Positions 18,209 to 47,333 of a stretch of DNA of 64,000 nucleotides are shown piece by piece. Source of the DNA: Cymbomonas tetramitiformis (taxonomy: Eukaryota; Chlorophyta; Pyramimonadophyceae; Pyramimonadales; Pyramimonadaceae); the NCBI GenBank assembly GCA_001247695.2, contig LGRX02027793.1, positions 37,938 through 101,937 on the forward strand, given 5' to 3'. Every line of letters begins with the position of its first letter. The first letter of the stretch is position 1. The position numbers were made by a program, and so were the translations under genes. The notes below the pieces were generated by a model. It did no database searches. It was not told the DNA's origin and was given only the letters and a program-made list of their open reading frames with translations.

Positions 18209-19273
18209 CCAGGCAGTGTTCCCGGTAATGTTGCCTTCGCTGATTAACACATCGCCGCTGGAGTCTATGTAGGCAAACCCTCCATCCTGTGACACCATAC
18301 CCTCATCCCCGGCATCATGGCTGCACGCGATGGGCACTCAACGTGGCGCTCCAGCAGGAGAGAGCTTTTACGAAGCACCACCCACATCAGCAGTGTTCCC
18401 GATCATGTTGCATTCGCTGATGGACACATCGCCACTCTTGTCTATGTAGGCGACACCTCCACGCTATGACACCATACCCCCATCCCCGTTCCCCAGCGGG
18501 TGATCAGTGCGCCTCTCTGCATTGGCGCCCACATACACGCCCACCCACCAATTCCCTCCTCCGCATCGGCTCACTAGCATCATGGCTGCACGTGATGGGC
18601 ACTCAACGTGGCGCTTCAGCAGGCGCGAGCTTCACAAAGCACCACCCACCACATCTGCAGTGTTCCCAGTCATGGTGCATTCGCTGATGGACACATAGCC
18701 GTTGGAGTCTATGTAGGCCACACCTCCACGCTACGACGCCATACCCCCATCAACGTGCCCCAGCAGGTGATCAGTGCGCCTCTCTGGATTGGGGCCCATA
18801 TACATGCCCACCGACCGATACCCTCCTCCGCATCTGCTCACTAGCATCATGGCTGCATGCGATGGGCATTCAACATGGTGCTTCAGCACGCGCGAGCTTC
18901 ACGAAGCACCACTCACCTTAGTTGCAGCGTTCCCGGTCATGTGGCATTCGCTGATGGACACATCGCCGCTGGAGTCTATGAACGCCACACCTCCGCGCTG
19001 CGACACCATACCCCCATCAACGTACCCCAGCAGCGGATCAGTGCGCCTCTCTGCATCGGCGCCCACATGCATGCCCACCGACCAAATACCCTCCTCTGCA
19101 TTTGATCACTAGCATCATGGCTGCACTTGATGGGCGGTCAACGTGGCGCTCCCGCTGGTGTGAGCTTCACAAAGCATCAACGACCCACCCACCTCAGCTG
19201 CAGTGTTCCCGGTCATGTTGCATTCGCTGATGGACACATTGCCACTGGAATATATGCAGGCCACACCTCCGTC
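18209..19273 (-). CDS. Exon array A: five Pmp-like beta-helix mini-exons
   Basis: Five phase-0 minus-strand exons lie at 18209-18286 (78 nt), 18386-18463 (78), 18650-18730 (81), 18917-18997 (81) and 19193-19273 (81). Each follows an AG acceptor (cacag, catag or cgcag) and ends at a GT donor (gtgggt or gtgagt). Each encodes one coil with the consensus GG-V/F-A-Y-I at residues 2-6, a variable loop at residues 7-11 (DSSGD, DKSGD, DSNGY), and VSISECNMTGNTA at the end. Introns are 99, 186, 186 and 195 nt, the first shortened by an internal deletion. The series is interrupted after 19373 by DIRS-B and resumes at 25034. The coils resemble Chlamydia-type Pmp repeats, so a secreted or cell-surface beta-helix is likely. 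Ligand and role cannot be read from the sequence. Confidence 0.8.
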
Positions 19274-19499
19274 CTGTGGCACCATGCCCCCATCCCCGTG
19301 CCCTACCAGGTGATTAGTGCGCCTCTCTGCATTGGCGCCCCATACATGCCCACCAACCGATACTCTCGTTCAAATCAGTTTCTGCTAACTATTGGAATCT
19401 CCAATGCCTGCTGATTAGTTTGGTGTAAAGTGTTTGAAAATGCATTTAGTGTTTTTTTGAATGCTTTTTAAATTCTAGTTTGATGAGATGTCAAGACTG

Positions 19500-19760
19500 T
19501 CTGCAAGTCACCAAAAGGAAAGAGTCTCTGGATTGGGAGCGGTGGGAAGAGCAAAATGAACAGAGCTGAACAGGTGTGTCACTTCGTGGCTACTTGTACG
19601 TCCTGTTTGTGTCATGGAGCTACATATGTCATGCGGCTCTACTGCAGCAGGAGTCGCAGATTCTGAAAGTCTGAAACCACAAAAATTCCGTTGCAATCCA
19701 ATTTGAACTCTCTCTTTTGCGCGAATCCTCATTTGCCATGAAACCAGAGATGAAACTGTG
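19500..19760 (-). repeat. DIRS-B terminal repeat, 3' copy
   Basis: This matches 24740-24950 in the same orientation, and related debris at 35550-35850, 50560-50830 and 62470-62830. Shared landmarks are gcagcaggagtcgc and tctgaaaccacaaaaattcc. Confidence 0.8.
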
Positions 19761-19787
19761 AGACACACAAAAGAAATCTGATCTCTG

Positions 19788-20150
19788 TCACTGAGACCAT
19801 GTTAACCACTCGAAGTAGTAGTTCATGTCTGCGTCCCTCAGAGTTGTCAGGTCATTATAGTGCTGCACTGCAGAAGAGAACTGTGACCAGCCTCCAAAGA
19901 AACACACTTTCTCCATTGCAACACCTACAGCTCGAGCACACATCGTGGCACCCTTCCGAGTGCTGTGTGCAGAAAAGTGGCCGCCCTCCGGGGGTTTGCA
20001 ATCCACCTCGCTGAGAGCCAGACCAATCCAGTCATTAGCAACTGAAGCCTTGACGATCTTCGGGTTCTCGAGTAGCAGCCAGTAGCCATCAGGTTGAGTG
20101 CTCGAAGACCTGCTCCAAGCTGCATCACGGTGCGCTTCCCAGTGCAACAC
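19788..20150 (-). pseudogene. DIRS-B tyrosine recombinase, C-terminal half
   Basis: The frame encodes the catalytic end of a tyrosine recombinase: HFSAHSTRKGATMCARA holds the H-x-x-R box, and GGWSQFSSAVQHYND holds the second W/H-box equivalent and the nucleophile tyrosine. It would cleave and rejoin the circular DNA intermediate during integration. It is separated from the N-terminal half (20178-21410) by a stop and frame change near 20178. The catalytic residues are all still there in this piece. Confidence 0.75.
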
Positions 20151-20177
20151 CGGCTCTCTCAGCCGATAAACTCCTCT

Positions 20178-21410
20178 TCAGGGAATGCACAAGCGCCTCT
20201 TCACCAGGTGGTGCCATCGTCCTTTCCCCTTAAGGAGAACCACAGAGAGCTCATTGTCGCCACACTGAACGTGTTGTCGTGACAACGATGTCCCCAAGTC
20301 TGGCCTGCCGAAAGTCACAAAGGCAATGAGCACGTAGGTGAGGGCTCGCAACAATCGTGGCTCTTCAGCAGACTGCAGTGTCAGGTTCAGCGCTGCCTCG
20401 TGTGCACGTCCTACGTGTTTTATTGGCTGCCACGTCCTCTGGGTCTCGATATTTTCCTCCTGCACCGCCAGCTCCGCCTGGATGGTTGCCATGCCTTTCA
20501 CAGCTCGGGTCACAGCATGGCCCTTCGCTGGTCTAGGAAGCAGGTCCTCGTGGTAGTTGTTGATTGCTGACAGGTACGGCTGCAAGGAAGCTAATTTGAC
20601 GCCTCCGTCTCTCCGCATGGAGGCGATATAAAGCAACCCAATTGCCTCCGTCGCTGGCAACCACGGCCGTTGGTGCTGTTCACAAAAATGAATGAAGCGC
20701 CGCGCCTTCGGCCCGTAATTGCCCAGCGTCGTGTCCAGCAGTGCTTTCTTCTGCATCTTCACTGCTAGCTCTGTGAGCCGGCACTGTCCCAACTCACCCC
20801 TCCACCGCTCACAGGGTGAGCGCGTGAGGTAGTTCTCTACTGCACCACCGTGCTTGTTCTCTTCGTAGTCGCCTCCGCGGTCGATGTTCTCGCTGTCCAC
20901 GTCTGCTGCCTCGGCCGTCAGCTCCGACAAGTCCGCGCTGTCAATGATCTTGAAGTTTTCCTCAGATAGGTCAAGTGTCTCCTCGTCGCCGTCGTCGTAC
21001 AGCACGTGCGCCTCACCGTTTTCGTTGAACTTCTGCACCACTCTCAGGTAGAAGCAGTCATCGTCCTTCCAGAACACCTCGATTTTTGAGCCCTCGGTCG
21101 CCTTGCTAGCCGTCGTACACATCGCCGATCTCTTGCGCACTTCAGCAGCGTAGTAGCTCACGGGCAGGCCTCGATGAAGAACATCACAGCGTCCCACTTT
21201 AAGGCTCCGAGCAGCTCGAACCCTCCCAGCCTGCTCGGAGTGAACAGGTCTCTGCGTCTCGGCATGATCACCACCTCGGTCGCCAGAGCTTCCAGGTCCC
21301 TGAATCAGGATTGGCGCGGCCAGTACGGAGTCACCACCGTCGCCGCAGCTCCTTCCTCCCGCAGCTTGTGCGCCACCTCGTCCAGCAATGCCCACGGGGG
21401 CTTCACCCAA
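20178..21410 (-). pseudogene. DIRS-B Tudor-like domain plus recombinase N-terminal half
   Basis: A 410-codon frame. About the first 100 residues are a frame-shifted methyltransferase-region remnant. Around residues 110-155 a compact domain reads EVFWKDDDCFYLRVVQ and then HVLYDDGDEETLDLSEE, which resembles a Tudor/agenet fold. From about residue 215 the tyrosine recombinase N-terminal (SAM-like) domain follows (TTLGNYGPKARRFIHFCEQH, ATEAIGLLYIASM, LQPYLSAINNYHEDL). The frame runs on into the core (LRALTYVLIAFVTFGRPDL, with the first catalytic arginine in GRPD) and stops at 20178. The Tudor-like segment is also found in the fragment at 7.8 kb. Confidence 0.65.
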
Positions 21411-21425
21411 TTGTTCTCCCCCCCC

Positions 21426-21715
21426 CTAGTCGTACCCCAAAGAGTCCACGCCCTCGCATCGCAGGTCTCTCCACGCAGCGTAGTACCGTGGAAGCTGCGC
21501 GGAGATCTTGGAAGCGAACCGGTGCATCATGAACGGGCCCAGCATCTCGCAGGCCCACTCAAACCAATTTCGATTAAGCCTCCAGTCGTCGAGGTCCTCG
21601 CAGCGAGAAAGGTTGTCGGCCCACACGTTGGCCTCGCTGCGAATGTACCGAGCTTGTAGCTCGATGTCGTGAACAGAGTCTTCGCATCCTCCTAATCAAG
21701 TCCAGGTGTGCTATA
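21426..21715 (-). pseudogene. DIRS-B RNase H C-terminus and downstream domain
   Basis: LDLIRRMRRL (about 21690) and NVWADNLSR (about 21610) are the last helix and terminal aspartate region of DIRS RNase H. They are followed by WACEMLGPFMMHRFASKI and SAQLPRYYAAWRDLRCEGVD, the beginning of the methyltransferase-like domain that follows RNase H in DIRS elements. The domain breaks off before its NPP motif. Confidence 0.65.
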
Positions 21716-22200
21716 GGACAACGTGCAATGTCATACGCGAGGTGACGTAATAGTGTCACACATGTCTATAGTGTCATGCGCGCCTTGAATACGCATCCGG
21801 GGACCCCTGTCGTAAAGGGAAATCCCCCTCGTGGGAGTGCACAGTACCACTGTACTGTGCAATAATGTGTCATACTGCAGTAGTGACACCTAGCACTGCA
21901 TAATACTGCATGAGAAGTACCTGATAGGTCAATGGGACTTGACCATGCTGACTAGGATCAACTGAGAGTTGAGAGAATGGGCAAGTGCCACAAAACAGTT
22001 GAGTTTTCTTATGTGCTTTGAGCCGACAGTACTAATATCTGTATACTAATTCTTACTGCAAGTATATGCATTAAGTTGGGACATAGTACCTAAAAGTGAC
22101 ATAGTTCACTAGACCTGTATAAGACATAATATAGAACCTTGTATTATATGTGTACCACAGTGTGCTATAAGTATGGAGTGTTACAGCCGACTCCTACACC
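21716..22200. mobile_element. Insertion inside DIRS-B RNase H
   Basis: About 480 bp of non-coding, AT-richer sequence separates LYCDNQ (about 22220-22240) from LDLIRRMRRL, which are nearly contiguous in the other DIRS-B copy (7095-7165). gtgtgctata occurs at both edges (21707 and 22161). It may be a small non-autonomous transposon. Exact borders and a target-site duplication could not be fixed. Confidence 0.5.
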
Positions 22201-23116
22201 AGGTTCCTGGAGGTGAAGTCTGGTTGTCGCAGTAGAGTCGGACGACCTTGATCTCCAGGTCCTTCAGGAACGCCTGCACGGTCTTGTACACGGCTTCCCG
22301 CTCCAGGTGTGTGATGTGCCAGTTGCGCATCTCATCCGGCCAGAAACCTCTCGCGGGGACTTGAGGTTCAGCATTCCTCCCCAGGCCATCATCTAAAAGT
22401 CCGTGCGCAGCTTCGTTCTCATCGGGGACCTCCAGATCTTGCGCCTGTTCCACCTCCTCATCACAGGCAGTCTGGACCACCTCTCTAAGTCCCCTGGTGC
22501 TGCACGCAAGATTTTTACCTTTGCTCCCCAGCTTCCGCCAGCACGAAGTAGAGCTCCCGTAGGTAGAGTCTCGCTGCTGGTACTGCCAGGTACACCGATT
22601 GGCAGAGCCCCGTGAAAGACGCCAGTCTTCTTTCAGGAATCCACCTCCGATTTCTTGCTGCGTCGGACAGGAACCCCTTGTGTGAATTTTGTGCACCCGA
22701 CGCTCCGTGACACAGAACTGTCCCAACTTCAGGTGTACCTCCAAGCCAAGGTGCTCCGCCACCTGCACTGGATCCCATTGGCCATTATTCTCGTTCCGTC
22801 GTAGGCCCAGCCGATGAAGCACGAGTTGAACTTTTTCTCGAGGCAGAAAGCCTTCTCGCTGAGACTCGACGAGCACCAAAAAATAGTCCATGTACGGCAG
22901 CACCCGCATCCCGCTGAGACGGTTCGCGTCCTCGTCAGTGCCACCTGCTCTGCGACGGACTGACCATCGCTGTTGTACCACGGAACCGTCCTGTAGCTTC
23001 TTGATCTCCCTGCGATCTTCTGCTGCTTGCGGTGAACGTAGCGCCTCCACCATCATGCACATGAACTTGCAGAACACCCGCAGTTGCAGTTCCACCCGAA
23101 CGGGACCGCTGTGCAT
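22181..23116 (-). pseudogene. DIRS-B reverse transcriptase (motif C on) and RNase H start
   Basis: A 311-codon frame. Residues 73-83 read LPYMDYFLVLV where RT motif C should read YMDD, so the second catalytic aspartate is tyrosine. EHLGLEVHLKLGQF (about 120) is the RT connection region. GFWPDEMRNWHITHLEREAV (about 265-285) and VRLYCDNQ hold the RNase H glutamate and second aspartate. The frame then enters the inserted sequence and ends. The motif-A part of RT lies in other frames at 23130-23435. Confidence 0.75.
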
Positions 23117-23129
23117 TGAAACAGCTCCC

Positions 23130-23583
23130 CTAGCAGGTCAAACTGCATGAACCGCTTAAAGTCCGGGTGGATTCCCAGTGCACGAACCCGTCCTGCAGGT
23201 CGAATCTGAAGCACCAGTCACCCGGCTTTGCCAGCCTGCGCAGCTTCTTCAGCGTCTCCATCTTCACATAATTTTTCGCACACCACTGGTTCAACCATCG
23301 GAAGTCCACCACCAGTCTCCACTTCTTCGTACCCAGTTTCGATACCAAAAAGGTGCGCGAAACGTTCAATCTCCTCTTCGCTCTTGTCCACGCACCGTCC
23401 TCCAGCAGCCTCTCCTTCTCTGCGTCCAGCCACACCTGCTGTTGACGCGAAGCAGGTCAGTGACACACCGTGGTCAAACGGAGGCAGAGACCTGCACGTC
23501 CACCTCAACTTCACGCCTTGAGTGATCCACTGCATCATTCCCGCGCACCATGCTCCCCTCCGCTGTCTCACCTGCTGCTGCAT
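23130..23583 (-). pseudogene. DIRS-B reverse transcriptase N-terminal part
   Basis: Overlapping frames contain SRTFLVSKLGTKKWRLVVDF followed by RWLNQW (fingers/palm entry), then WCFRFDLQDGF (motif A with its aspartate). A frameshift at about 23155 separates this from the motif-C frame at 22181-23116. Confidence 0.7.
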
Positions 23584-23729
23584 CGAGTGATGTTTCCTGA
23601 CCAGTGCCCGGAGAGGGCTGTTGCACTGGTCAGGGTAGCGACATCGCTACATTATGATCGGCCGCCGGTTTCAAGGCCCCGGCCCTACCGCCTTTTTCCA
23701 TTAGGTTTCTTGCTGTCCTTCTCACCATC

Positions 23730-24534
23730 TTACTTCTTACGCTCCTTCCACCCCGCGCGTCCGGCATTTGCCGCGTTCTTGGACGTCACTGCCATCAGTG
23801 CTTTGCCGCGGGCTTTTTGTAGCTCCTCCCCGCTCGGTGAAGAACCCGGTTCCTGCTCCAGCTGTCCGCGCAGTTCCAGCATTGTCCACCTGTTACACAA
23901 CATTGCGCACACGCCGTGCACCGAGTTGGATCACTGCTTGAAAGCGTTGTTGTAGCTCGTCGTACAACAGGCAGCCGGCCACCGCAGTGTCCAGCGTGTT
24001 GCTGCATTCAGCTACCATGTCGTGCAGTAAGTAAGACAGCGCCGGAGCCAAAACTAAGCACTCGTACTTCATTGAAGAGTTAGACTTCTCGGAGAGGGCG
24101 TCGTAAGTCTTGTTCCCGTGCAGATCGTACAGCTGCGGCATTCTCGTTGTCAACCTCGCCGGCCGCGGCGGGAACGGATTGACGGAGGCTGCTGGCACGT
24201 ACGCCAGTTTCCTCCTTCTCTCCAGAAGTTGTTCAGCAGTTTTTGCCACGGTGTCCGGGTTCGATGTCCCAGACTTCGCTGCAATCTTCGCTTCCAACGC
24301 AACGTTGATTTGTGATTGCTGTTGAAGCTCGTCACGCAGCAGGCGATGCTCCTCCGCCTGCTGCCTCTGCATTTCCAGCATCTCCCCTTGCTGCTTTTGC
24401 ATCGCCAGAATTTGTTGCATCAGCACTTCCTGTGTAGACTGTGCTGCGGGGGAAGGGGAAGCCTGTCCGATGTCGGGCTTCTCCGGGAGGGGAGGGAAAT
24501 CCTCTAGATCCTTGTTCATTGAACTTCCTGCCAT
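23730..24534 (-). pseudogene. DIRS-B Gag-like ORF
   Basis: The main frame (24534-23893, 213 codons) starts MAGSSMNKDLEDFPPLPEKP. At residues 38-85 it carries a Q/E-rich heptad-like coiled coil (MQQILAMQKQQGEMLEMQRQ), and then a globular segment (KYECLVLAPALSYLLHDMVA). A frame change near 23920 continues as NRWTMLELRGQLEQEPGSS to 23730. Position at the 5' end of the element and the coiled coil support a Gag role. No zinc knuckle survives in this copy. Confidence 0.6.
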
Positions 24535-24739
24535 CTAGTCACTCACGAAGAAATCACATTGAAAACAACTCACACTGCTCTGCTGTCGTTGAGCTGTCGT
24601 TTGCCGATGTAAGATCTGTGAGATCTCCTGCTGTCGTCGATCGCCGTTGTACAACCTAGTGGTGTAGTCACTACCTACTCTGCTGTTTACAGGTGAAAGA
24701 AGTGAAGAAAATTTTACAAAATCTGATTTGTAGTGTGCC

Positions 24740-24950
24740 TCACAGAGTACCGCAGGTACCCGTGATGTTCCGTTTGCAAGAGCAAAAGGATCAGAGCTGA
24801 ACAGGCGTGTCGCTTCATGGCTACTTGAACATCCTGATTGTGTCACGGAGCTACATGTGTCATTTGGCTCTACTGCAACAGGAGTCGCGGATTCTGAAAA
24901 TCTGAAACCAAAAAAATTCCGTTGCACTACAATTTGAACAGAATACTTTC
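24740..24950 (-). repeat. DIRS-B terminal repeat, 5' copy
   Basis: Direct-orientation counterpart of 19500-19760. The shared segment runs from agagctgaacaggcgtgtcg to the aaaaaaattccgttgca end. Confidence 0.8.
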
Positions 24951-25111
24951 TTGCAAATGCTTGCTGTGTGTTTGGTATGTCTTGCTCACCCTAGCAATAA
25001 TTTGCAAATTACCCACTGCTGATCTCCAACATTGACTAGCATCATGGCTGCACTTTATGGGCACTCAACGTGGCGCTCCAGCAAATGCGAGCTTCGCAAA
25101 GCGCCACCCAC

Positions 25112-25653
25112 CTCAGCTGTGTTCCCGGTCATGTTGCATTCGCTGATGCACACATCGCCACTGCTGTATGTGTACGCCACACCTCCGCCCTGCAACACCA
25201 TACGCCCATCAACGTGCCCAGCAGGTGATCAGTGCCTCTTTGCATTAGCGCCCACATAAATTTGCACCGACCGATACCCTCCTCCGCATCTGACAAAGCA
25301 GCACCCACCTCAGCAGTGTTCCCGGTCATGGTGCATTCGCTGATGGACACATAGCTGCTGGAGTTTACGTAGGCCACACCTCCACGCTGTGACACCATAC
25401 CCCCATCAAGGTGCCCCAGCAGGTGATCAGTGCACCCCTTTACATTTGCGCCCAAATGCATGCCCATCCAACGATACCTTCCTCCGCATTGGATCACTAG
25501 CATCCTGGCTGCACATGATGGGCATTCAACGTGGAGCTCCAGCAAGCGCGAGGTTCACAAAGAAGCAACCACCTCAGCTGCACTGTTCCCAGTCATGGTG
25601 CATTCGTGGATGGACATATCGCTACTGTTGTATGTGTAGGCCACACCTCCACG
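25112..25653 (-). CDS. Exon array B: three Pmp-like mini-exons
   Basis: Phase-0 exons lie at 25112-25189 (78 nt), 25309-25386 (78) and 25573-25653 (81), with donors gtgggt, gtgggt and gtggtt and CAG acceptors. Variable loops read YSSGD, NSSSY and YNSSD-type. The first intron is only 119 nt because most of the repeat unit is deleted. The second is the standard 186 nt. The array is directly continuous with array C across the insertion at 25831-28405, which is flanked by ccaccca on both sides. Confidence 0.8.
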
Positions 25654-25839
25654 CTGCGACGCCATACCCCCATCCCCGTGCCCCAGCAGGTGATCAGTGC
25701 GCCTCTCTGCATTGGCGCATGCTAATCCACCGAAACCCTCCTCCGCATCTGCTCACTATCATCATGGCTGCACGCGATGGGCACTCAATGCGGCGCTCCG
25801 GCAGGCGCGAGCTTCACAACGCACCACCCATCAAAACAA

Positions 25840-26160: not shown

Positions 26161-26162
26161 GC

Positions 26163-27460: not shown

Positions 27461-27577
27461 GGAGGCAAGCAGGCGGGTGGCCGGTCTGAGTGAGGGGGTA
27501 GAAGGCATGGGGGGATCTGGTGAGAAAGGGGAGGAAGATTTGGGGCGAATTTATATATTTTTATCTTTATCGAGAAA

Positions 27578-27650
27578 AGTTTGGAAGGGGAATCGAACCT
27601 CCGACCTCCCGCTTTGAGCAAGGGCGCTCTACCACTAAGCTATCCCAACC
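27578..27650 (-). tRNA. tRNA-like gene or tRNA-derived Pol III unit
   Basis: On the minus strand the A box (TAGCTTAGTGG) and B box (GGTTCGATTCC) fit the Pol III consensus and are correctly spaced. A 73-nt cloverleaf can be drawn with acceptor GGTTGGG against TCCAAAC (one mismatch), D arm AGC...GAGC and T loop TTCGATT. A TTTT terminator follows immediately. The anticodon arm is imperfect: stem CCCTT/GCGGG has mismatches, and position 33 is C rather than T (loop GCTCAAA). I therefore do not assign an amino acid. It may be a decayed tRNA or a SINE head. Confidence 0.55.
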
Positions 27651-28413: not shown

Positions 28414-31157
28414 ATCAGCAGTGTTTCCGATGATGGTGCATTCGCTGATGGACACATTGCCACTGGAGTCTAAGTAGGCGAAGCCTCCGTCCTGTGGCAC
28501 CATACCCCCATCCCCGTGCCCGAGCAGGTGATCATTGCGCATCTCTGCATTGGCGTCCACATAGGTGCCCACCCATCGATACCCTCCTCCGCATCTGCTC
28601 ACTAGCATCATGGCTGCAAGTGATGGGCGCTCAACGCGCCCCTCCAGAAGACGCGAGCTTCACAAAGAAACAACCACCTCAGCAGCGTTCCCGGTAATGT
28701 TACATTTGCTGATGAACACATCGCTACTATTGTACGTGTAAGCCACGCCTCCGCGCTGTGATATCATACCCCCAACCCCGTACCCCAGCAGGTGATCAGT
28801 ACGCCTCTCTGCATTGGCGCCCATATACATGCTCACCCACCGATACCCTCCTCCGCGTCTGCTCACTCGCATCATGGCTTCATGCGATGGGCACTCAACG
28901 TGGCGCTTCAGCAAGCGCGAGGTTCAAAAAGCACCACCCACCGCAGCTGCAGTGTTCCCGGTCAAGTTGCATTCGCTGATGGACACATCACCACTGGAGT
29001 CTATGTATGCCAACCCTCCGTCCTGCGAAACCATACCCCCATCACCGTGCCCCAGCAGGTGATCAGTGCGCCTCTCTGCATTGGGCGCCCACATACACGC
29101 GCACCGACCAATATTCCCTCCGCATCTGCTCATTAGCATCATGGCTGCACTTGATGGTCATCAAACATGGTGCTCCCGCAGGCACGAGCTTCACAAAGCA
29201 CCACCGACCCACCTTGGCGGTGTTCCCGGGCATATTGCATTCGCTGATGGACACATTGCCACTGTTGTATATGAAGGCCACACCTCCGTTCTGTAACAGC
29301 AAACCCCCATCCCCATGCCGCACCAGGTGAGCAGTGCGCCTCTCTACATTGCCGCCCACATACATGCCCACCCACCGATACTCTCCTCCGCATCTGCTCA
29401 CTAGCATCATGGCTGCACTTGATGAGCACCCCACGTGGCGCTCCAGCAGAAGCGAGCTTCAAAATACACCACCCACCTCAACCGCACTATTCCTGGTCAT
29501 GGTGCATTCGCTGATGAACAAATAGCCAATGTTGGATATATAGGCCACACCTCCGCGCTGTGACATCATACCCCCATCCCCGTACCCCAGAAACTTATCA
29601 ATGCGCCCCTCTGCATTGGCGCCCACATACATGCCCACCACCAATATCTTCCTCCGCATCTATTTATAAGAATTATGGCTGCACGCGATGAGCACTCAAA
29701 ATAGCGCTCCAGCAGGCGCGAGGTTCACAAAGCGCCATCTCACCTCAGCAGCAGTGTTCGCAGTCATGTTGCATTCGCTGATGGACACATAGCCAATTTT
29801 GAATATGTAGGCCACACCTCCAATCTGTGACACCATACCCCCATCCCCGTGCCCCAGCAGGTGATCAATGTGCCTCTCTATATTGGCACTCACATACATG
29901 CCCACTGACCGATACCCTCCTCCGCATGATTGTGCTTACTCGCATCATAGCTGCCATTTATGGGCACTCAATGCGGCGCTCCAACAGGCACGAGCTTCAC
30001 AACGCACCACCCACCTCAGCTGCAGTGTTCTCGGTCATGTTGCATTCGCGGATGGACACATTGCCGCTCTTGTCTATGTAGGCCACACCTCCACGCTGTG
30101 ACACAATAACCCCATCCCCGTGCCCCAGCAAGTCATCAGTGCGCTATCTGCATTGGCGTCCACGTACGCGCCCACCACCAATTCCCTCCTCCGCATTGGC
30201 TCACTAGCATCATGGCTGCACGTGATGGGTACTCAACGTGGCGCTCCAGAATACGCGAGCTTCTTAAAGAAACACCCACCGCATTTGCAGTGTTCCCAGT
30301 CATGGTGCATTCGCTGATGGACACATCGCCACTGGAGAAAATGAAGGCCACCCCTCCGTCCTGTGACACCATACCCCCATCAACGTGCTCCAGCAGGTGA
30401 TCAGTGCGCCTCTCGGCATTGGAACCAACATACATGCCCACCCAACGATACCCTGCTTTGCATCTGCTCACTAGCATCATGGCTGCACTCAACGTGCCCC
30501 TCCAGCAAGCGTGAGCTTCAGAACGCTGCAAAGCACCACTCACCTTAGTTGCAGCGTTCCCGGTCATGTTGCATTCGCCGATGGACACGTTGCCACTGTA
30601 TAATATGGCGGCCACACCTCCGCGCTATAACACCATACCCCAAGCAGGTGGCCCAGCAGGTGATCAGCGCGCCTCTCTGCATTGGCGTCCATATACATGC
30701 CCACCGTCCGATACCCTCCTCCGCATCGGCTCACTCGCATCATGGCTGCACGTGCTGAGCACTCGACGTGGCGCTCCAGAAGAAGCGAGCTTCACGAAGC
30801 ACCCACCTCAGCAGCAGTATTCGCAGTCATGTTGCATTCACTGATGAACACATCGCCAACGTACTCTATGTAGGCCAACCCTCCGCGCTGTGACACCATA
30901 CCCCAATCCCCGTGCCCCAGCAGGTCATCATTAGTGCGCCTCTCTGCATTGGCACGCACATACATGCCCACTGACCGATACCCTCCTCTGCATCTGCTCG
31001 CTAGCATCAGGGCTGCACGCGATGGGCACTCAACGTGGCGCTCCAGCAGGCACGAGCTTCACAAAGCACCACCCACCTCATCTGCGGTGTTCCCAGTCAT
31101 GTCGCATTTGCTGATCAACACATGACCAACGTACTCTATGTAGGCTACACCTCCGCG
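28414..31157 (-). CDS. Exon array C: eleven Pmp-like mini-exons
   Basis: Exons lie at 28414-28491, 28678-28755, 28942-29022, 29213-29290, 29477-29557, 29744-29824, 30015-30095, 30280-30360, 30544-30624, 30807-30887 and 31077-31157. Lengths are 78 or 81 nt, all phase 0. Donors vary (gtgggt, gtggtt, gtgaga, gtgagt) but always keep GT, and acceptors are CAG or TAG. Introns run 182-190 nt, several not multiples of three. The GG-V-A-Y and SECNMTGNTA ends are conserved, while residues 7-11 vary strongly (DSSGN, YNSSD, SNIGY, FKIGY, DKSGN, FSSGD, EYVGD, EYVGH). I saw no in-frame stop in any exon. After 31212 the series is cut by DIRS gag sequence. Confidence 0.82.
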
Positions 31158-36406: not shown

Positions 36407-37584
36407 CGCAATGTTCTCACCCACAGCAATGTTCCCGGCCATGTTGCTTTCGCTGATGGACACATAGCGACAGGACTCTATGTGCAGCACACCTCCGTGA
36501 GCCTGTGGCACCACATCCCCATCCCCGTGCCCCACCAGGTGATCGGTGTGCCTTTCTGCATTGGCGCCCACATACATGCCCGTCAACCAATCCTCGCCTT
36601 CGCATCTGCACACTAGCATCATGGCTACACGCGATGTGTACTCAGCGTGGCGCTCCAGCAAGCGCGAGCTACACTAAGCACCACCCACCGCATCCAATGT
36701 GGTGTTCCCAAGTGCTGTGTTCCCCGTCATGTTACATCCGCTGATGATCACATCGCCACTAGAGTCTATGTCGGCCACACCTCCGCCCTGTGACACCATA
36801 CCCCCAAGCATTCCCGTGTCCCAGCAGGCGATCAGTGCACCTCTCTGCATTGGCGTCCACATACATGCCCACCCATCGATACCCTCCTCCGCATCGGCTC
36901 ACTAGCATCATGGCTGCACGCGATGTGCACTCAACGTGACGCTCCAGCGGACGCGAGCTTCACAAAGCACCACCCACCGCAGCTGTGTTCCCGATCATGT
37001 TGCATTCGCTGATGGACACATTGCCACTGTTGTATATGAAGGCAACACCTCCATCCTATAACACCATACCCCCATCCCCGTAACCCAGCAGGTCATCAAT
37101 GCGCCTCTCTGTGTTTGCGCCCACATACACGCCCCCCCACCGATACCCGCCTCTGCATTTGCTCATTAGCATCATGGCTACACATGATGGGCACTCAGCG
37201 TGGCGCTCCAGCAGGCACGAGCTTCACAAAGCACCACCCACATCAGCTGCAGCATTCCCGGTCATGTTGCATTCACTCATGGACACATCACCGCTGGAGT
37301 ATATGTTTGCAACACCTCCGGCCTGTGACACCACAACCCCAAGCATCCCCGTGCCCAAGCACGTGATCAGTACGCATCTTTGCATTAGCGCCCACATACA
37401 TGCCCACCAACCGATACCATCTGCTCACTAGCATCAAGGCTACACGCGATGGGCACTCAGTGTGGTGCTCCAGCAAGCGCGAGGTTCACACAGCACCACC
37501 CACATCAGCTGCAGTGTTCCCAGTCATGTTGCATTCGCTGATGGACACATCGCCACTGTAGTATATGGCGGCCACACCTCCGTC
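36407..37584 (-). CDS. Exon array D: five Pmp-like mini-exons
   Basis: Exons lie at 36407-36502 (96 nt, or 78 nt if the internal donor at 36424 is used), 36689-36787 (99), 36978-37055 (78), 37242-37322 (81) and 37504-37584 (81). Introns are 186, 190, 186 and 181 nt. The first two exons are lengthened at their 3' ends by whole codons: the first by a duplicated AACATTGC-containing 18-nt unit that also duplicates the gtgggt donor, the second by LGNTTLDA-type sequence. The coil consensus is otherwise as in the other arrays. DIRS-A interrupts the series after 37702. Confidence 0.8.
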
Positions 37585-38215: not shown

Positions 38216-38241
38216 GAATTTTCATATTTTATCTTAAGAAG

Positions 38242-39059: not shown

Positions 39060-39869
39060 ATGGGGGGGCGAAAGCCGACATCTTGCGGACCGGCAACGAG
39101 TCCGCAGCACGAAGCAGCGGAGATGAGCCTCGAGTTACTCATCAGCACAGCTCAGGCTGCGCTGAGAGCACAAAGGCTAGCACGAAGGCAGGGGGCGGCC
39201 CTGCCAGAATACATCGGTGACGACGAGTCCATCGCGCTTACGCCGCAACAGAGCCTAACGCATCTGGCTCTGCACGCGACTCGAGCAGTTGCAGCAGCGG
39301 CAACGGTGTGCCTTCCCGCATTTGAGCGGGCTAGCACGACAGCACCGGGCTTGGCGACTTCATCGACGTTTCCGCCTTCTTCATCCACGCGTGGCACCGC
39401 CTCATCGCAGGGGCCAAGCGTCAGGACCCTCAGGAGAACCACGCAGCGGCAGAACGCGAAGGAGCGCGCTGAGCGGAGAGATCCGCCAGCGACGACGGGG
39501 TTTTTCACGACTCCTTCCGTTTTGCCAACAGTTGTGCCAGGAGCATCTTTCACCTTTGGCAACGCCTCTGGAACAGTGAAGTCCAGAGACTTCGCGCAAA
39601 CCGCGGCGCCATTCTGTGGTGCAGCGGTTTCGGACTCAACGTTTTCGGACATCGTTCAGCGTGCACCGTCTGGCACACCGCCTTCTCCTGGTGAGAAACG
39701 TAGTGGTAAACCGGCATCGGTGCCGCCTAGCCCACCGAGAACGAGCAAAAAGGGGAAAGCAGCTGCGCAGGGGGACTCGCAGGACGAGGACATCGCCGAC
39801 CTCGAGTACGAGGACCCCTGGCATGAGGCGGACGGCTTGGACGTGGAGGTCTATGACCAGCACGTCTGA
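39060..39869 (+). CDS. DIRS-A ORF2, low-complexity protein (269 aa)
   Basis: The frame is intact, rich in A/S/T/P with few hydrophobic blocks. An N-terminal helical segment (EMSLELLISTAQAALRAQRL) is followed by a disordered middle and an acidic C-terminus (DSQDEDIADLEYEDPWHEAD). No family is recognised. It may be part of the Gag precursor. The next ~600 bp (39870-40490) has no clear frame. Confidence 0.45.
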   Translation: MGGRKPTSCGPATSPQHEAAEMSLELLISTAQAALRAQRLARRQGAALPEYIGDDESIALTPQQSLTHLALHATRAVAAAATVCLPAFERASTTAPGLATSSTFPPSSSTRGTASSQGPSVRTLRRTTQRQNAKERAERRDPPATTGFFTTPSVLPTVVPGASFTFGNASGTVKSRDFAQTAAPFCGAAVSDSTFSDIVQRAPSGTPPSPGEKRSGKPASVPPSPPRTSKKGKAAAQGDSQDEDIADLEYEDPWHEADGLDVEVYDQHV

Positions 39870-40496
39870 TAACCGGAACTCCGCCAGCTACATTTCCCTG
39901 GCGCGCCTTCACTCAGCGCGCATGTGCAGGACCTGCTGGGAGCGAGTCAGCGGCCGACGAGTTTGGCAACCTGGCGGGACAGGCACGACAGAGCCGGCAT
40001 CCGCTTTTCGTCCCCCACACCACGACGCATCTGGGGGTTTTCAGCGGCGGCAGCGGCGTGGTCATTAGACTGGCGCATCTACATTCGACCACAATATCTG
40101 CTCAACATCTACACTCTGCAGATCTCGCTCTAGTTGGAGCACAACTTGTGCTTTTAGAATTGCATGTATCCTAGGATATGCACCCCCACCGGGCCGCATA
40201 CTGGGAGACCCCATTAGGAGCTCCACTAGTAGACGGCCTCACTTGGCATCGGACAAACTTGCTTGCCTGGTGCCAAATTAACAGTGGGGGCATCTTTAAC
40301 CGCTTGTCGCCCGTGCCATCTGAACTGCAGCCTCCCGTTATGAGGCAGGGCTGCAGGGAGGGTTTTAACTTTTGCAAGTGATAACTGCCTGGGACATCTG
40401 TAGATAGGTAGAAATAAAGGGGCAGGCTTGACAGCTGTGCACCTCCTAACATAACGTCTCCGGTAGGAGTATGTCACATTTTTTCTTTTTTTCTTT

Positions 40497-40999
40497 TTGG
40501 TTGCTGACCCTGTGACTGGTGAGATGAAGTCGGTTGCGGTTCCGCGTCTGTCCAAGGATCAATTCCTGGAACAAAACTTCGAAATGGTGGAAAAGATCTC
40601 GGATTTGAAGGAGCGTGCGCTGTTTCGAAAGTATATCGGTTGGATTCTGATGCTGACGGAAAAGTATTCCTGGGCGGATGTGTATGACTTCGACGTGCAA
40701 GTGCGCGATGATTTTGCGCAGGGTCGTGTGACGACGTGGGACTCGGTTCCGTTGGCTTTCCGGTTTCAATACTCGTTCGCTGATTCCCTTGGTGAAGCGC
40801 AGAAGCACCTGACGGAAGACCGGGGAGGCAAGAAGGGTAGCCCGCGGGGATTCCAAGACGCGCGGCAAGAAGCGAGACGGACTGTGTGACTTTTCCCAGT
40901 CGGCTCGCGGCTGTAAAGGGGGAAGGACTGTGGATTCGTGCACGCGTGTCGTAAGTGCAAGTCCGCGGACCACGGTGGGTCCGCCTGTCCGGGCAAGTG
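40497..40999 (+). pseudogene. DIRS-A Gag core with broken zinc finger
   Basis: The 130-codon frame to 40889 reads VPRLSKDQFLEQNFEMVEKI, LKERALFRKYIGWILMLTEK and YSWADVYDFDVQVRDDFAQG, comparable in position and pattern with the Gag fragment at 31.2-31.7 kb. The CCCH finger expected next is spread over two other frames: CDFSQSARGC just after 40886, and FVHACRKCKSADHGGSACPG ending at 40999. Two small indels therefore inactivate the Gag C-terminus. Confidence 0.65.
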
Positions 41000-41024
41000 A
41001 CTAGCTGAGTAGGGCGGGGCGCAG

Positions 41025-43292
41025 TTGCCGGAGGCAGCCCCGCTTAATCCTGGTTTGACGGCCGTGATGGCTCGAGATGAGGCGAAGGCTAAGAAAGTGA
41101 GGAAGTGGTCGGCGAAGTTTCTGGCAATGTTCACGGCTGTGAGAGTGTCTCTGGCTTTCTATGGCGTGCCGGAGGCGGATTGGCTGCAGTACCAGCGAGA
41201 TGTGGTGGCAGTGGGCGCACGGGTATCACCGCTCACGGAGCGGGCTGACAGATGGGCACAAGCAGCTTGGGGCCTGCCGGGCGCGGAGGAGGTAGTCCGC
41301 GGGGTGGCTACCGGGTTTCGGTGGTAACAGGAGCAGCCGGCAGAGTTCTTCGAAGTGGAGAACTACGTCCCGCCGGAGCACCAAGAAAAGGTGTGGAGAA
41401 AGCTGCAAGAGGAGGAGGACGCCGGTAGGATGGTGCGCACAGATGCTGGGAGTGTTCCCGGTATTTCCGCCCTTGGAATTGTCTTCCCGGTTGTTGAAGG
41501 TAAATTGAAAGACAGACTGGTGCACGATTTGTCTAGGCCTGTAGGGCTGTCGGTGAACGACAATTGTGTGATTGAAAGTAAAAAGTTTGCCACTGTTGAA
41601 GCGGCTTTTTCCTTGGTGCAGCCATATAGTTATATGGCCAAGATTGCCTTGAAAAGTGCATACCGGCACGTGGGTGTTGCTTCGGAATTCTTTCAGTTCT
41701 TGGTGAGCAAATTTGATGATGTTGTGAGGATGGACACTAGGTTTCCGTTCGGGATTAAGGCGGCTCCGGGATTGTTCTCGGACGTGACGGTCCTGATTTC
41801 CAGGATGCTGCAGAGTAGAGGTTTTCCGGGTGTGGTTGTGTACCTTGAAGATTTTCTGTTGGTGGCAGATTCAGAGGAAGCGTGTCAGCAAGGGTTCGAC
41901 TTGTTGCTGGAGCTGGTGAAGTATCTGGGTTTTGAGGTTGCCCCGGAAAAGGTGGAGTCACCTCGGCAGGACATAGTGTTCCTTGGGGTGCGCCTGCAGT
42001 CCAACCAGTCGGGACTCGGTGTTGTGGCAATGAGTATTGATGAAAGTAGAGTGCAGCGGGTTGCCGCAGAGTGTCGGCACGTGGCCGGATTGCAGAAAGT
42101 GGGGGTGAAGGAAGTTGAGAGGCTGGTGGGTCAGCTGATGTTCTGTGCCAGAGTCGTGTATGGTGCAAAGATGTTCTTGAGGTCTGGGTATGACTTCCTT
42201 GGCAGAGCCAGGAGAATGAGAAGGGTGTTTGACTCGGTTCCGGAGGGGCTGAGTAAGGACTTGAGGTGGTTGGCCAAGATGTTGGACACCAACAACGGTC
42301 ATGCAATGGTGTTGAACAAGAGGCCCGTGGTTCGGGATTTCTTTGCAGTTGATGCTGCAGGCGAGGAGGCTGTTGACGGGGGAATGGGTGGTTTCTTCGG
42401 CGGAAGGTGGTTCTCTGTGAAGTGGGATGATGTGAAACAGTGGAAGGTGCTGCCGTTCAGCCCGTTCCGGGATGAAGCTTCCAGTCATATCAACTATCTG
42501 GAGCTGTTTGTAATCTTTTGGGCCTTGAAGTTGTGGGGCCATTTGTTGCGGGGTTGCAAGATTGTGTTGTGGAGCGACAATGAAGCTGCCCAGCTTATGA
42601 CGGAAAACCTGTGGGGCAAGGCAACATTCATTCCGTTGCTTAAGAAGATCCTGTTGTTGACTCTGAAACACGACCTGAGAATTGTGACCAAGAGAATTTC
42701 CTCTAAGGCCAACGGCCTTGCGGATGCTCTGAGTAGGAGTAAAATGGGGAGGTTTTTTGAGTTGCTGAGAGAGTGGTCCCGGAGGGATGCACCAAGGGAC
42801 CTGAACGACTGGATGGTCAAAGATTGGTTGTGGGAGAAGGCCAGGGTGTTCGGACCTTTCGCTGTAGATGCTTGTTGTGACGAAGTGGGAGCGAACTCCC
42901 GGTGTTTTCGTTGGTGGTCCAAGGAGGACTCTTGTTTAGGTAACAAGTGGAGGGGGTTGAATGTGTATTGCAACCCTCCTTTCTCTTTGCTGGTTGAGAT
43001 TCTGGCCCATTTTTTGAGTGAGAAGAGGGTAGCGCCGAGGACAACCTCAGCAGTGTTTGTCTTGCCTTTCTGGCCTACGGAGAAGTTCTGGTTGGAAATT
43101 GTTGTGCCGGCCATTGATTGTGGGCTGTTTGAGGTAGTAGAGTTTGTGCCTGAAGGGTTAGATGTCTTTACCTCGCCCAATGGGGTCCGAGGTCGGAGGA
43201 AAGATTGTGGCCCAACAAGATGGCCAGTGGTGCTGGTCAGGTGCCCGGCTCAGCCTCCCAAAGGGTCAGCCTGGCTGGGAATTGGTAGGTGA
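41025..43292 (+). pseudogene. DIRS-A Pol: RT - RNase H - DNA methyltransferase-like
   Basis: One frame is interrupted by a single in-frame TAA at 41325-41327. The part from 41355 is 645 codons. RT: GISALGIVFP (36-45) and DRLVHDLSRP; motif A reads AKIALKSAYRHV (95-106), with Ala98 replacing the catalytic Asp; motif C reads VYLEDFLLV (162-170), with Glu165 for the first Asp of YxDD. RNase H: FAVDAAG (Asp333), NYLELF (Glu383), WSDNEA (Asp408) and GLADALSR (Asp457) are all kept. Methyltransferase-like domain: GPFAVDACCD (500-509) and YCNPPFSLL (538-546), the NPPF motif of N6-adenine methyltransferases found downstream of RNase H in DIRS elements. RT activity is very unlikely, while RNase H and the MT motif look intact. 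Confidence 0.85.
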
Positions 43293-43347
43293 ATTGACTG
43301 GGGGCGGGAGGTAAGGGGCTGCAGAGTGTGCAGAACCTACTCTTTGG

Positions 43348-44362
43348 TTGAGAGCCAAGTGGCGAGATGTGCTGAAGGCGGCTGACACCGAGAACACGAG
43401 GAAGGCACCTACTTCAGGCCAGAGAGCCTTTGTGAGATTTATGCTAACCTTCGGAGAAGGACCGCTAGTTCCGGTGTCAGATGATGACCTAGCTTTGTTT
43501 TATGTATTTCAGTCTAAAACTTGCAAAATTGCAACACTGAAGGCCTACACGGCTGGTATTAGAAGGCTTCACCTGGAATGCTCTGAGAGCTGGGTGCCTG
43601 GTAGCCATCGGTACACAGTAGCACAGACTCTGAGAGGACTAAAGAGGCTGCTCGGCGACCGAGTTAAACAGAAGCTTGCTATTACATTGTTCATGCTAGC
43701 GAAGATGTATGTTGTAATGGATTTTGATGACTGTAACATGGTGACATTGTGGGCAGCCATGCTTACTGCCTTGTTGTGTTTGTTGAGAAAAAACAATGTG
43801 TGTGTTTGGGAAACTAGACTCCTTCAATGTAAGAAGGGTGTTGCAGAGGAAAGATTTTGTTGTAAGGAAGGAGACAGTATGGGTAAGACTGACATTCTCC
43901 AAGGTAATTCAGTTTCATGAGAGGTCTCATGTAGTAGCCATGAAGGCAACTGGTGGCTTGTTGTGCCCCAGGAAGGCAGTGCTGAACTGTTTTAAGAGAG
44001 TGCTGGCAGAGCTGGAAAGCCCGTCTTTCATGTGGAAGTCAAGGGGCAAGTTTGTGCCTATGACACATGGTGTGTTTGTAGCGGAGGTGAAAAAGCTGAT
44101 CCGGAGGATTGGCTTGGACCCGAGTAAGTACTCGGGTCACAGTTTCAGGAGAGGGGGAGCCACTGTGGCTTTCAACCTCGGGGTGGACCATCTCCTCATC
44201 AAGCTGCAAGGAGACTGGGTCTCCAATGCATACCAGAGGTATGAGCAGCTTAGTCGGACGAGGAGGCTGGAGCTACCGAAGAGGCTGACTGACAGAATGA
44301 AAGAGGTGGAGAGGGGTGTGACAAGATCTGCCAGCAAGCCCCTCCGGAGGTTGGGTTGCTGA
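43348..44362 (+). pseudogene. DIRS-A tyrosine recombinase, one frameshift
   Basis: The first frame (43348-43920) contains the N-terminal domain (TLKAYTAGIRRLHLECSESW) and the first catalytic arginine (ALLCLLRKNN, Arg147). The second frame (from 43796) continues with FGKLDSFNVRRVLQRKDFVV, then GHSFRRGGATVAF (His and second Arg) and LQGDWVSNAYQRYEQ (Trp/His-box position and nucleophile Tyr). The frames must be joined near 43800 in a gtgtgtgtttggg run, so a 1-nt indel in a simple repeat is the likely lesion. All catalytic residues of the DIRS recombinase are present across the two frames. Confidence 0.82.
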
Positions 44363-44376
44363 AGCCCCAGCCAGTT

Positions 44377-44576
44377 TGGGTAGGGAACTTGCAGGTGTTC
44401 GCAAGACCCTGCAAGTTGGGCTGACTCTTCTGCAACCTAGTTGCCCACCACCTCCCTAGAAGTACTTGTCAGTTTGTTGTGTGAATGTTGTTGATAAATG
44501 TTGATTGTGAATGTTAAAAATGGTGCTTTTAAGCACCACCTCCGACTCTGGAAATCTATCGTCCTGGGAAGTACTT
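44377..44576 (+). repeat. DIRS-A repeat B1
   Basis: Matches 45055-45258 almost perfectly (gaacttgcaggtgttcgcaa to cgtcctgggaagtactt). It contains the ggtgcttttaagcacc hairpin. Confidence 0.9.
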
Positions 44577-45030
44577 GTGTGAATAATTGAGAAAATTTAT
44601 TTTCTCAATTATTTGGGAAGTACGGAGGAGGTAGTTTCCGACCCACAAAAATGAGCCCGAGGCTCGACGAGGAGTTGTGAATTTTTTGTGGATTTTTTAG
44701 TGACAGAATTTCGAGTCGGAGACTTGAATTATGTAGTACGACTTTCCTGCTTTCTGATTGGTCGACTGTCTTGAGTCAGAGGCTCTCTAGTTGAGTCGGA
44801 GACTCTTCGGTAGTCTGGACCGGATGACAGTGTCACAGATCCAGATCGGCTCCACACAAGGGCCTCCTACTGTGGCAAGGTTGCCACAAGTGTAGACGGA
44901 CAGACACAGAGTGTCGGCTCGGTTCGGGTGGAATGTGAAAGGTTGTTGTCAGCTTTTTGAAATAGCTGTGACAGCCGAGAGCACGTCATTCTGCGAGTAC
45001 TTCGGGCTCCGAGTCTACCAATTTCAAAAA
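44577..45030 (+). repeat. DIRS-A repeat A2
   Basis: Second copy of A, directly abutting B1. A2 and A1 differ at a handful of positions, for example ttgagtcggag versus ttgagacggag near 44798/37969. Confidence 0.9.
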
Positions 45031-45054
45031 TTTCCCCACACCCACCACTCCCTT

Positions 45055-45258
45055 GGGGTAGGGAACTTGCAGGTGTTCGCAAGACCCTGCAAGTTGGGCT
45101 GACTCTTCTGCAACCTAGTTGCCTACCATCTCCCTAGAAGTACTTGTCAGTTTGTTGTGTGAATGTTGTTGATGAATGTTGATTGTGAATGTTAAAAATG
45201 GTGCTTTTAAGCACCACCTCCGACTCTGGAAATCTATCGTCCTGGGAAGTACTTCTAG
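45055..45258 (+). repeat. DIRS-A repeat B2
   Basis: Second copy of B, 25 bp after A2. It ends the element at about cctgggaagtacttc. Confidence 0.9.
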
Positions 45259-45386
45259 AACTGTATGGATACAAGGTGAACACTTTACGTAATGGTATCG
45301 GGGAACACAGGCCACACACAGGCCAAAATGGTTTCTGGGAACACATGGCGCTCCAGCAGGCGCGAGCTTCACAAAGCACCACCCAC

Positions 45387-47333
45387 CGCATCTGCAATGT
45401 TCCCGGTCATGTTGCATTCGCTGATGGACACATCGCCACTGGAGTATACGTAGGCCACACCTCCATGCTATAACACCATACTCCCATCCCCGTGCCCCAA
45501 CACGTGATCAGTGCGCCTCTCTACATTGGCGCCCACATGCCTGCCCACTAATACCCTCCCTCGCATCTGCTCACTAGCACAATGGCTGCACGTGATGGGC
45601 ACTCAACGTGGCGCTCAAGCATGCGCAAGCTTCATAACGCACCACCCACCTCAGCCGCAGTGTTTCCGGTCATGTTGCATTCGCTAATGGACACATTGCC
45701 ACTGTTGTATATGTAGGCCACACCTCCGCGCTGAGACACCACACCCGCATAATCCAGCAGGTGATCAGTGCACTTCTTTGCATTGGCGCCCACATACATG
45801 TCTGCTGACCAATACCCTCCGTCATATCAGCTCACTAATATCATGGCTGCACGTGATGGACACTCAGCGTGGCGCTCCAGCAGGCTTCGGAAAGCACCAC
45901 CCACCAATACAGGAGCAGTGTTCCCGTTCATGTTGCATTCGCTGATGGACACATCACCACTGGAGCATATGTAGGCCACACCTCCGTGCTATATCACCCA
46001 ATCCCCATCCCCGTTACCCAGCAGGCGATCAGTGCACCTCTCTGCCTTGGCGCCCACATACATGCCCAGCACCGACCGATTCCCTCCTCCGCATCTGGTC
46101 ATTAGCAACATGGCTACACGCGATGGCCAATCAACATGGTGCTTCACCACGCGCGAGCTTCACAAAGCACCACCCACCCAAAAAGCAGCAGTGTTCTCGG
46201 TCATGTTGCATTCGCTGATGGACACATCGCCACTGTAGTATATGTAGGCCACACCTCCATGCTAAAACACCATACCCCAATCCCCGTGCCCCAGCACGTG
46301 ATCAGTGCACCTGTCTGTATTGGCGCCCACATATACACGCCCACCCACCGATACCCTCCTCCGCATCGGCTCATTAGCACGATGGCTGCACGTGATGAGG
46401 CACCAACCGTGGCGCTCCATCAAGCGCGAGCTTCACAAAGCACCACCCACCGCATCTGCACTGTTCCCGGTCATGATGCAGTCGCTGATGGACACATCGC
46501 CACTGGAGTATATGTAGGCAACACCTCCGTCCTGTGACACCATACCCCCATCCCCATGCCCCAGCACGTGATCAGTGCGCCTCTCTACATTGGCGCCCAC
46601 ATGCAAGTCCGCCCACTAATACTCTCCCTCGCATCTGCACACTAGCACGATGGCTGCACGTGAAAGGCACTCAGTGTGGCGCTCCAGCAAGCGCGAGCTT
46701 CACAACGCACCACCTACCACAGCTGCAGTGTTCCCGGTCATGTTGCATTCGCTGATGGACACATTGACACTGGAGTATATGTAGGCCACACCTCCATGCT
46801 ATGACACCATATCCCCATCCCCGTGCCCCAGCAATTGATCAGTGCACCTCTCTGCCTTGGCGCCCACATACATACCCGCCCACTAATACTCTCCCTGGCA
46901 TCTGTTCATTAGCACGATGGCTGCACGCGATGAGGAACCCAGCGTGGCGCTCCAGCAAGCGCGAGCTTCACAAAGCACCACCCACCTCAGCTGCAGTGTT
47001 CCCGGTCATGTTGCTCTCGCTGATGGACACATCGCCACTGGAGTATATGTAGGCCACACCTCCGTCCTATGACACCATACAACCAACCCCATGCCCCAGC
47101 ACGTGATCAGTACGCCTCTCTGCATTGGCGCCCTTACACATGCCCGCCCACTAATACTCTCCTTCGCATCTGCGCACTAGCACGATGGCTGCACGTGAAG
47201 GCCACTCAACATGGCGCTCCAGCAGGCGCGAGCCTCACAAAGCACCACCCACCTCAGCAGCAGTGTTCCCGGTCATGATGCATTCGCTGATGGACAGATA
47301 GGCACTAGAGTCTATGTAGGCCACACCTCCGTG
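45387..47333 (-). CDS. Exon array E: eight Pmp-like mini-exons
   Basis: Exons lie at 45387-45467 (81 nt), 45650-45730 (81), 45905-45988 (84), 46178-46261 (84), 46451-46531 (81), 46718-46798 (81), 46986-47066 (81) and 47253-47333 (81), all phase 0. Donors are gtgggt except gtaggt at 46718. Acceptors are CAG or TAG. Introns run 174-189 nt. Loop residues 7-11 include YSSGD, YNSGN, CSSGD, YYSGD, YSSVN and DSSAY. A ninth unit begins after 47518, but only about six bases beside its donor remain before the 53-bp minisatellite takes over. Confidence 0.82.

Follow-up and report, generated by a model that had tools for sequence, protein, structure and literature searches.

Thirty-two tandem single-coil exons probably form the middle of one very large beta-helix gene in the green alga Cymbomonas tetramitiformis

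The 64 kb of Cymbomonas tetramitiformis DNA analysed here (the window) are the final part, bases 37938-101937, of contig C18659, which totals 101937 bases, and carry on their minus strand an array of 32 mini-exons. Each array exon is predicted, from its own sequence and from the modelled fold of a paralogue, to encode one coil of a Pmp-like beta-helix. The array is likely to be the middle section of a single nuclear gene, very large and rich in introns, that encodes a probable cell-surface protein of this marine bacterivorous green alga. Its single transcription unit would probably span at least ~89 kb, from 101.3 down to 12.2 kb of the contig. An earlier note on this DNA had proposed a tandemly amplified mini-exon gene; the tandem coil exons stand, but the array is probably just the middle of a larger membrane-protein gene, itself one of a family.

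All 32 exons that had been described as minus-strand exons of 78-99 nt were located, running from window position 47333 down to 18209 (20 of 81 nt, 8 of 78, 2 of 84 and one each of 96 and 99 nt). Every length is divisible by 3 and none of the exons contains a stop codon. The expected period of ~267 bp for an exon plus its intron was also found, in five blocks (47523-45343, 37702-36375, 31213-28406, 25830-25035 and 19367-18154), and the introns within blocks (n=27) have a median length of 186 nt. The array exons are as follows:

47253..47333, minus strand, array coil exon 1, 81 nt
46986..47066, minus strand, array coil exon 2, 81 nt
46718..46798, minus strand, array coil exon 3, 81 nt, donor GTAGGT
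46451..46531, minus strand, array coil exon 4, 81 nt
46178..46261, minus strand, array coil exon 5, 84 nt
45905..45988, minus strand, array coil exon 6, 84 nt
45650..45730, minus strand, array coil exon 7, 81 nt
45387..45467, minus strand, array coil exon 8, 81 nt
37504..37584, minus strand, array coil exon 9, 81 nt
37242..37322, minus strand, array coil exon 10, 81 nt
36978..37055, minus strand, array coil exon 11, 78 nt
36689..36787, minus strand, array coil exon 12, 99 nt
36407..36502, minus strand, array coil exon 13, 96 nt (alternative donor GTGGGT after 78 nt)
31077..31157, minus strand, array coil exon 14, 81 nt
30807..30887, minus strand, array coil exon 15, 81 nt
30544..30624, minus strand, array coil exon 16, 81 nt
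30280..30360, minus strand, array coil exon 17, 81 nt
30015..30095, minus strand, array coil exon 18, 81 nt
29744..29824, minus strand, array coil exon 19, 81 nt
29477..29557, minus strand, array coil exon 20, 81 nt
29213..29290, minus strand, array coil exon 21, 78 nt
28942..29022, minus strand, array coil exon 22, 81 nt
28678..28755, minus strand, array coil exon 23, 78 nt
28414..28491, minus strand, array coil exon 24, 78 nt
25573..25653, minus strand, array coil exon 25, 81 nt
25309..25386, minus strand, array coil exon 26, 78 nt
25112..25189, minus strand, array coil exon 27, 78 nt
19193..19273, minus strand, array coil exon 28, 81 nt
18917..18997, minus strand, array coil exon 29, 81 nt
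18650..18730, minus strand, array coil exon 30, 81 nt
18386..18463, minus strand, array coil exon 31, 78 nt
18209..18286, minus strand, array coil exon 32, 78 nt

An AG lies directly 5' of all 32 exons (22 CAG, 10 TAG) and a GT directly 3' of all 32, with GTGGGT as the donor in 26. Care must be taken in reading these borders: the acceptor AG was set at a fixed place, 3 bases before GGAGG, for 31 exons and picked by hand for the exon at 36502, seven exon lengths were chosen by hand among competing GTs, and the GT at the start of 27/27 within-block introns is there by construction and is not a test. When the donor was chosen blind to frame, as the GT nearest to GTGGGT, the lengths were again divisible by 3 in 32/32 exons, no stops appeared, and 31 exons kept the length of the model. 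Phase-0 borders hold for every exon, under the hand-made and the frame-blind models alike.

Strong coding constraint acts on the array exons. Insertions and deletions are divisible by 3 in 13 of 13 cases in exons and in 6 of 30 in introns (p 7e-7), and none of the 32 exons has a stop, where 500 simulations based on the mutation spectrum of the introns gave 5.8 such exons on average and never fewer than 1. The closest pair of units in the window is 0.128 substitutions per site apart, so the frame has been maintained after amplification. Residues G2, G3, N23 and A25 are invariant in all 32 exons, A25 being written by four codons, and residues 1, 8, 9, 12, 26 and 27 of the coil are strongly variable. 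With coil sites sorted by the orientation presumed from Pmp coil geometry, not from coordinates, the ratio of nonsynonymous to synonymous change (N/S), normalised to a neutral expectation derived from the introns, is 0.23 at presumed inward sites and 1.41 at outward or turn sites (p 5e-10). The presumed core residues appear to be conserved, and the exposed repeat residues diversified. A codon-position test on all exon columns gave no third-position excess (12.7, 12.9 and 11.9%), but is misleading because the diversified sites mask the conserved ones.

The Pmp-like identity of the coils, also put forward in the earlier note, was borne out by profile searches of the spliced translation. PF02415 (Chlam_PMP) matched two spliced blocks with 27.0 and 33.2 bits (cut-off 20.6) and predicted protein P0001 with 44.6 bits, while the NCBIfam model para_beta_helix matched one block with 20.8 bits (cut-off 19.45) and stayed under its cut-off on the other. 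Of the Pmp tetrapeptides GGA(I,L,V) and FxxN, GG and the N are present in 32/32 exons, but V follows GG in 28/32, and M stands in 28/32 where F is usual. Structure prediction for a paralogue gave a right-handed beta-helix with one repeat per coil. A search of PDB sequences found no relative, just 2 chance matches. The NCBIfam GspN model, with E 5e-6 and 2e-5 but 25-27 of 140 bits, fell far under its cut-off and was set aside.

Further exons that probably belong to the same gene lie on both sides of the array:

63203..63367, minus strand, exon A, beta-helix N-terminal cap (N-cap) with an uncertain 5' limit and donor GTAGGT; 93% identical to the P0024 peptide, no stop
62951..63022, minus strand, exon B, a phase-0 single-coil exon of 72 nt with donor GTGCGT; found by tblastn of P0001 (79%, E 1e-6)
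49552..49632, minus strand, exon C, a phase-0 single-coil exon of 81 nt with donor GTAGTG; found by tblastn of P0001 (75%, E 3e-5)
15260..15340, minus strand, probable phase-0 coil exon a of a second type, 81 nt; broad coil profile E 1e-5, missed by the array-only profile
8998..9075, minus strand, probable phase-0 coil exon b of the second type, 78 nt; 75-78% DNA identity on C9579 and C14262, array-only profile E 0.056
4777..4857, minus strand, probable phase-0 coil exon c of the second type, 81 nt; broad coil profile E 4e-8, array-only profile E 0.042
2282..2359, minus strand, coil exon homologous to P0056 residues 25-51, 78 nt; 85% identity, E 1e-8
1954..2044, minus strand, coil exon homologous to P0056 residues 51-84, 3' limit approximate; 85% identity, E 9e-11

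The 5' exons (63.4-49.5 kb) are open, as is the 3' half of the locus. A broad hidden Markov model (HMM) of the coil picked up another 10 significant matches, which cover 8 exons and all lie on the minus strand, though the search is partly circular and the matches are not counted as independent: 7/10 were in its building set, which included the sequence of second-type exon b itself, and an eighth (exon B) entered via a paralogue. Outside the window, further downstream in the gene, the contig has one-coil exons at 37.5 and 35.0 kb and, at 32.5-31.1 kb, multi-coil exons. These are followed from 19.2 to 12.2 kb by the exons of P0051 (CYMTET_41756), which encode a Cys-rich stretch and hydrophobic spans. 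Simple hydropathy gives 6 such spans in P0051 and 8 in the matching C-terminal part of P0056, a single protein model in which PF02415, PF13229 and the same C-terminus occur together. UniRef names P0052 and P0056 'TRP C-terminal domain-con...', and Pfam found no membrane domain in them.

Searches of the C. tetramitiformis genome (851.7 Mb) suggest that the gene is one member of a family of paralogues. The unit DNA matches at least 260 places, on 12 contigs among the matches listed; for the N-cap exon there are 32 matches, of which 8 are close (77-100%), and for the C-terminal exon 135, of which 13 are close (83-100%). Among the matches listed, the N-cap lies upstream of an array on the same strand on 7/7 contigs (C11136, C5020, C3179, C3614, C893, C18659 and C9579), and a close C-terminal exon lies downstream of an array on the same strand on 5/5 (C18659, C22057, C23227, C5020 and C13841). 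Between loci, the main C-terminal exon has a ratio of nonsynonymous to synonymous substitution rates (dN/dS) of 0.28, a multi-coil exon one of 0.41, and two shorter pieces 0.48 and 0.59; for exon A the ratio is 0.15-0.19 when this locus is compared with C3179 and C9579, and 0.47 between those two. The exons, their phase, the coding constraint, the conserved gene order and the fold predicted for the paralogue are all computed results. When 93 units drawn from five loci were placed in a tree, 64 had their nearest neighbour on their own contig, against 21 by shuffling (maximum 37), so that arrays appear to grow or homogenise locally.

Exon models on four paralogous contigs were chosen with frame as a criterion (42/78 hits above threshold), and no constraint statistic was drawn from them; several of the failing hits are partial or are coils with GA for GG, and some C14262 units look degraded. 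A distant paralogue on C3476 has a weak N-cap match (48%, E 7e-4) and GG-rich coils but carries many of these in a single intronless open frame of 1006 residues, so cassette exons are not universal in the family. At another locus (C11136:11801-21800), the N-cap exon of P0024 is preceded by the exons for the N-terminus of that protein; N-terminal stretches of P0024 resemble CUB (19.6 bits, cut-off 21.4) and EF-hand (19.1 bits, cut-off 25) domains at scores under the Pfam cut-offs.

Several observations weigh against a single large beta-helix gene. The array blocks are set apart by ~21 kb of inserted DNA, which would require very long introns to be tolerated, and the contig stops short of the gene's 5' end. 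The public annotation splits the locus into CYMTET_41761 (P0007), an automatic model that fuses retroelement open reading frames (ORFs) to a few array exons (matches here up to 100%), and CYMTET_41756, the 3' half. Exons are not better conserved than introns (12.8% and 10.8% divergence from consensus per site), and N/S over all exon sites, 2.20, is close to the neutral 2.38; plain conservation is therefore no marker of these exons, and it is the frame, the lack of stops and the site pattern that mark them. The last of these depends on the assumed sorting of sites noted above. An HMM built from the 32 array exons alone, searched against the contig, gives the best other coils E 0.04-0.07, at 4.8, 9.0 and 63.0 kb, and with none below 0.04 the outer exons are distant relatives, tied to the gene via paralogue models. 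PF02415 has no match in P0024 despite similar-looking coils. It has none in an unspliced six-frame search of the genome either, an outcome to be expected when every exon holds a single coil. Plain Foldseek found nothing at E 0.001, P0051 has no Pfam domain, and the fold prediction for the C-terminus is unusable (mean predicted local distance difference test score 32).

Some of these points would also suit a decayed relic, a once-coding pseudogene broken by retroelements whose working copies are the paralogues on other contigs. The division into five blocks by inserted DNA, an array that begins directly at a 52-bp minisatellite, and the failure of the public annotation to build one gene all fit such a relic, yet 0/32 exons are damaged even though the closest units differ so clearly, the 5' exons are open, and the 3' half is open too and shows a dN/dS of 0.28 in its main exon. 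We consider the relic unlikely. Less credible still is a non-coding satellite in which recent copying has kept an open frame and splice-like motifs; the near-equal divergence of introns and exons fits it, but the in-frame indel bias, the absence of stops, the site-specific diversification, the Pfam match and the conserved gene order would all be unexpected, and we give it almost no weight.

The locus could instead hold two or more adjacent genes, with an array gene that ends inside the array and a separate membrane-protein gene downstream. The public annotation divides the locus in this way, and when donors are read through in frame, a stop is met within 7 codons after 23/32 array exons, 16 of these extensions beginning VGGA; P0001 ends in exactly VGGAL. 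Against this stand the array and close C-terminal exon, kept in the same order and on the same strand across the contigs named above, the one-coil exons homologous to P0056 that lie between the two, and the union of beta-helix and C-terminus in P0056 itself. Adjacent genes are very unlikely on this evidence. The intron starts themselves (for example from 47252 downward) read V-G-G-A-L and then a stop. Comparison of the VGGAL columns with the rest of the intron gave no clear excess of conservation, and selection for VGGAL is unsupported; the idea that the introns derive from former coil sequence was an impression by eye and found no support.

If the locus is one large gene, predicted splicing would join the 32 coils to the upstream N-cap coils and to the downstream one-coil and multi-coil exons to give a long rod, followed by a region rich in Cys and, at the C-terminus, by several hydrophobic spans. 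By a rough count the finished protein might have ~45-50 coils if all exons are used. Whole coils, phase-0 ends and similar introns would make the 267-bp units good substrates for unequal recombination, which could add or remove whole coils with frame and fold intact. A constant core with diversified outward and turn residues would be expected of a ligand-binding or adhesive surface. Splicing according to the model, an origin of the array by recombination, the membrane location and the function are inferred. Because of this surface diversification and the bacterivorous diet of the host, a role in the recognition or capture of other cells seems likeliest, and since the host eats bacteria, the family may offer candidate prey receptors of phago-mixotrophic algae. 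The phases also permit coils to be joined or skipped freely. In a tentative and rather improbable extension, the gene could act as a diversity generator, in which coil cassettes are alternatively skipped or joined and most retained introns end the protein with a V-G-G-A-L-like tail and a stop. Many rods that differ in length and in face, a part of them released and others bound to the membrane, would then serve in recognising or catching bacteria.

Other elements in the window include a 52-bp minisatellite of ~36 copies (47524-49384), directly adjacent to the coil array on its 5' side, and further minisatellites at 138-1757, 12051-13515 and 50867-52317. Antisense between array blocks, at 41328-43292 on the plus strand, lies a DIRS-like retroelement, a single frame of which encodes both a reverse transcriptase (PF00078) and a Dam-type methylase (PF05869). 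A second retroelement-like insertion between blocks, at ~19400-24980, has similar sequences at both ends as judged by eye; its 415-residue ORF has no Pfam match, and its ORFs are the ones fused with array exons in CYMTET_41761. A tRNA-Leu (CAA) gene lies on the minus strand at 27577-27650, within an insertion between array blocks. Two arms of an inverted repeat (52845-54844 and 55091-57095; 98.9% identical over 2007 bp) encode the same protein, and this may be either a foldback element or an assembly palindrome.

Beta-helices of this kind are known from chlamydial Pmp proteins, where motif residues point inward in the predicted right-handed helix. The passenger domains resemble the array in that a repeat of the tetrapeptide motif makes one coil, with many features of interest in side loops; the portion of the source drawn on quotes 27 coils for PmpB and 43 for an Akkermansia protein, the longest Pmp-like helix it gives (PMC11166332). 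Those proteins are bacterial autotransporters, whereas the Cymbomonas gene is eukaryotic, has one coil per exon, and showed no Pfam match to the PMP middle domain or autotransporter beta-barrel in P0051, P0052, P0055, P0056 and P0057 (E 0.01). Eukaryotic membrane receptors with a Pmp-like N-terminal region are represented by GrlP, GrlQ and GrlR of Dictyostelium, which differ in being family-3 G-protein-coupled receptors (PMC1885808).

The earlier note called the architecture distinctive, and so it is, but there are precedents among leucine-rich repeat (LRR) genes. In the brown-algal ROCO (LRR-ROC-COR) and NB-ARC-TPR genes, each repeat is its own tandem exon with one shared border phase, under reported diversifying selection and in candidate recognition receptors; in ROCO genes every LRR has an exon of its own, 72 bp long and in phase 2, and both shuffling and alternative splicing are reported (PMC11378527). 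The repeats there are LRRs or tetratricopeptide repeats (TPRs), whereas in Cymbomonas, a green alga, the unit is a beta-helix coil of 78-99 bp in phase 0, with similar introns in a 267-bp unit, a hydrophobic C-terminus and predicted splicing. Tetrahymena LRR genes likewise have tandem exons of fixed length (90 bp) in one strongly biased phase, phase 2, with a variable exon number attributed to unequal recombination and a lineage-specific expansion; they differ in fold and in being from a ciliate, and a retroposon is proposed to have aided their spread (PMC6564038). One structural repeat per exon with same-phase borders, the hallmark of such genes, is what the Cymbomonas array displays throughout. 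No earlier report of a beta-helix gene with one coil per exon was found among the papers listed by searches of open-access literature or by term searches in two Cymbomonas papers. The strategy of one repeat per symmetric exon, described for brown-algal receptors with LRRs or TPRs and for the LRR genes of a ciliate, would extend to the beta-helix fold and to green algae, which suggests that independent lineages reach the same genetic design for recognition proteins. As coil number and surface could change without damage to the fold, the Cymbomonas gene would allow the evolution of a protein in steps of whole coils to be tested.

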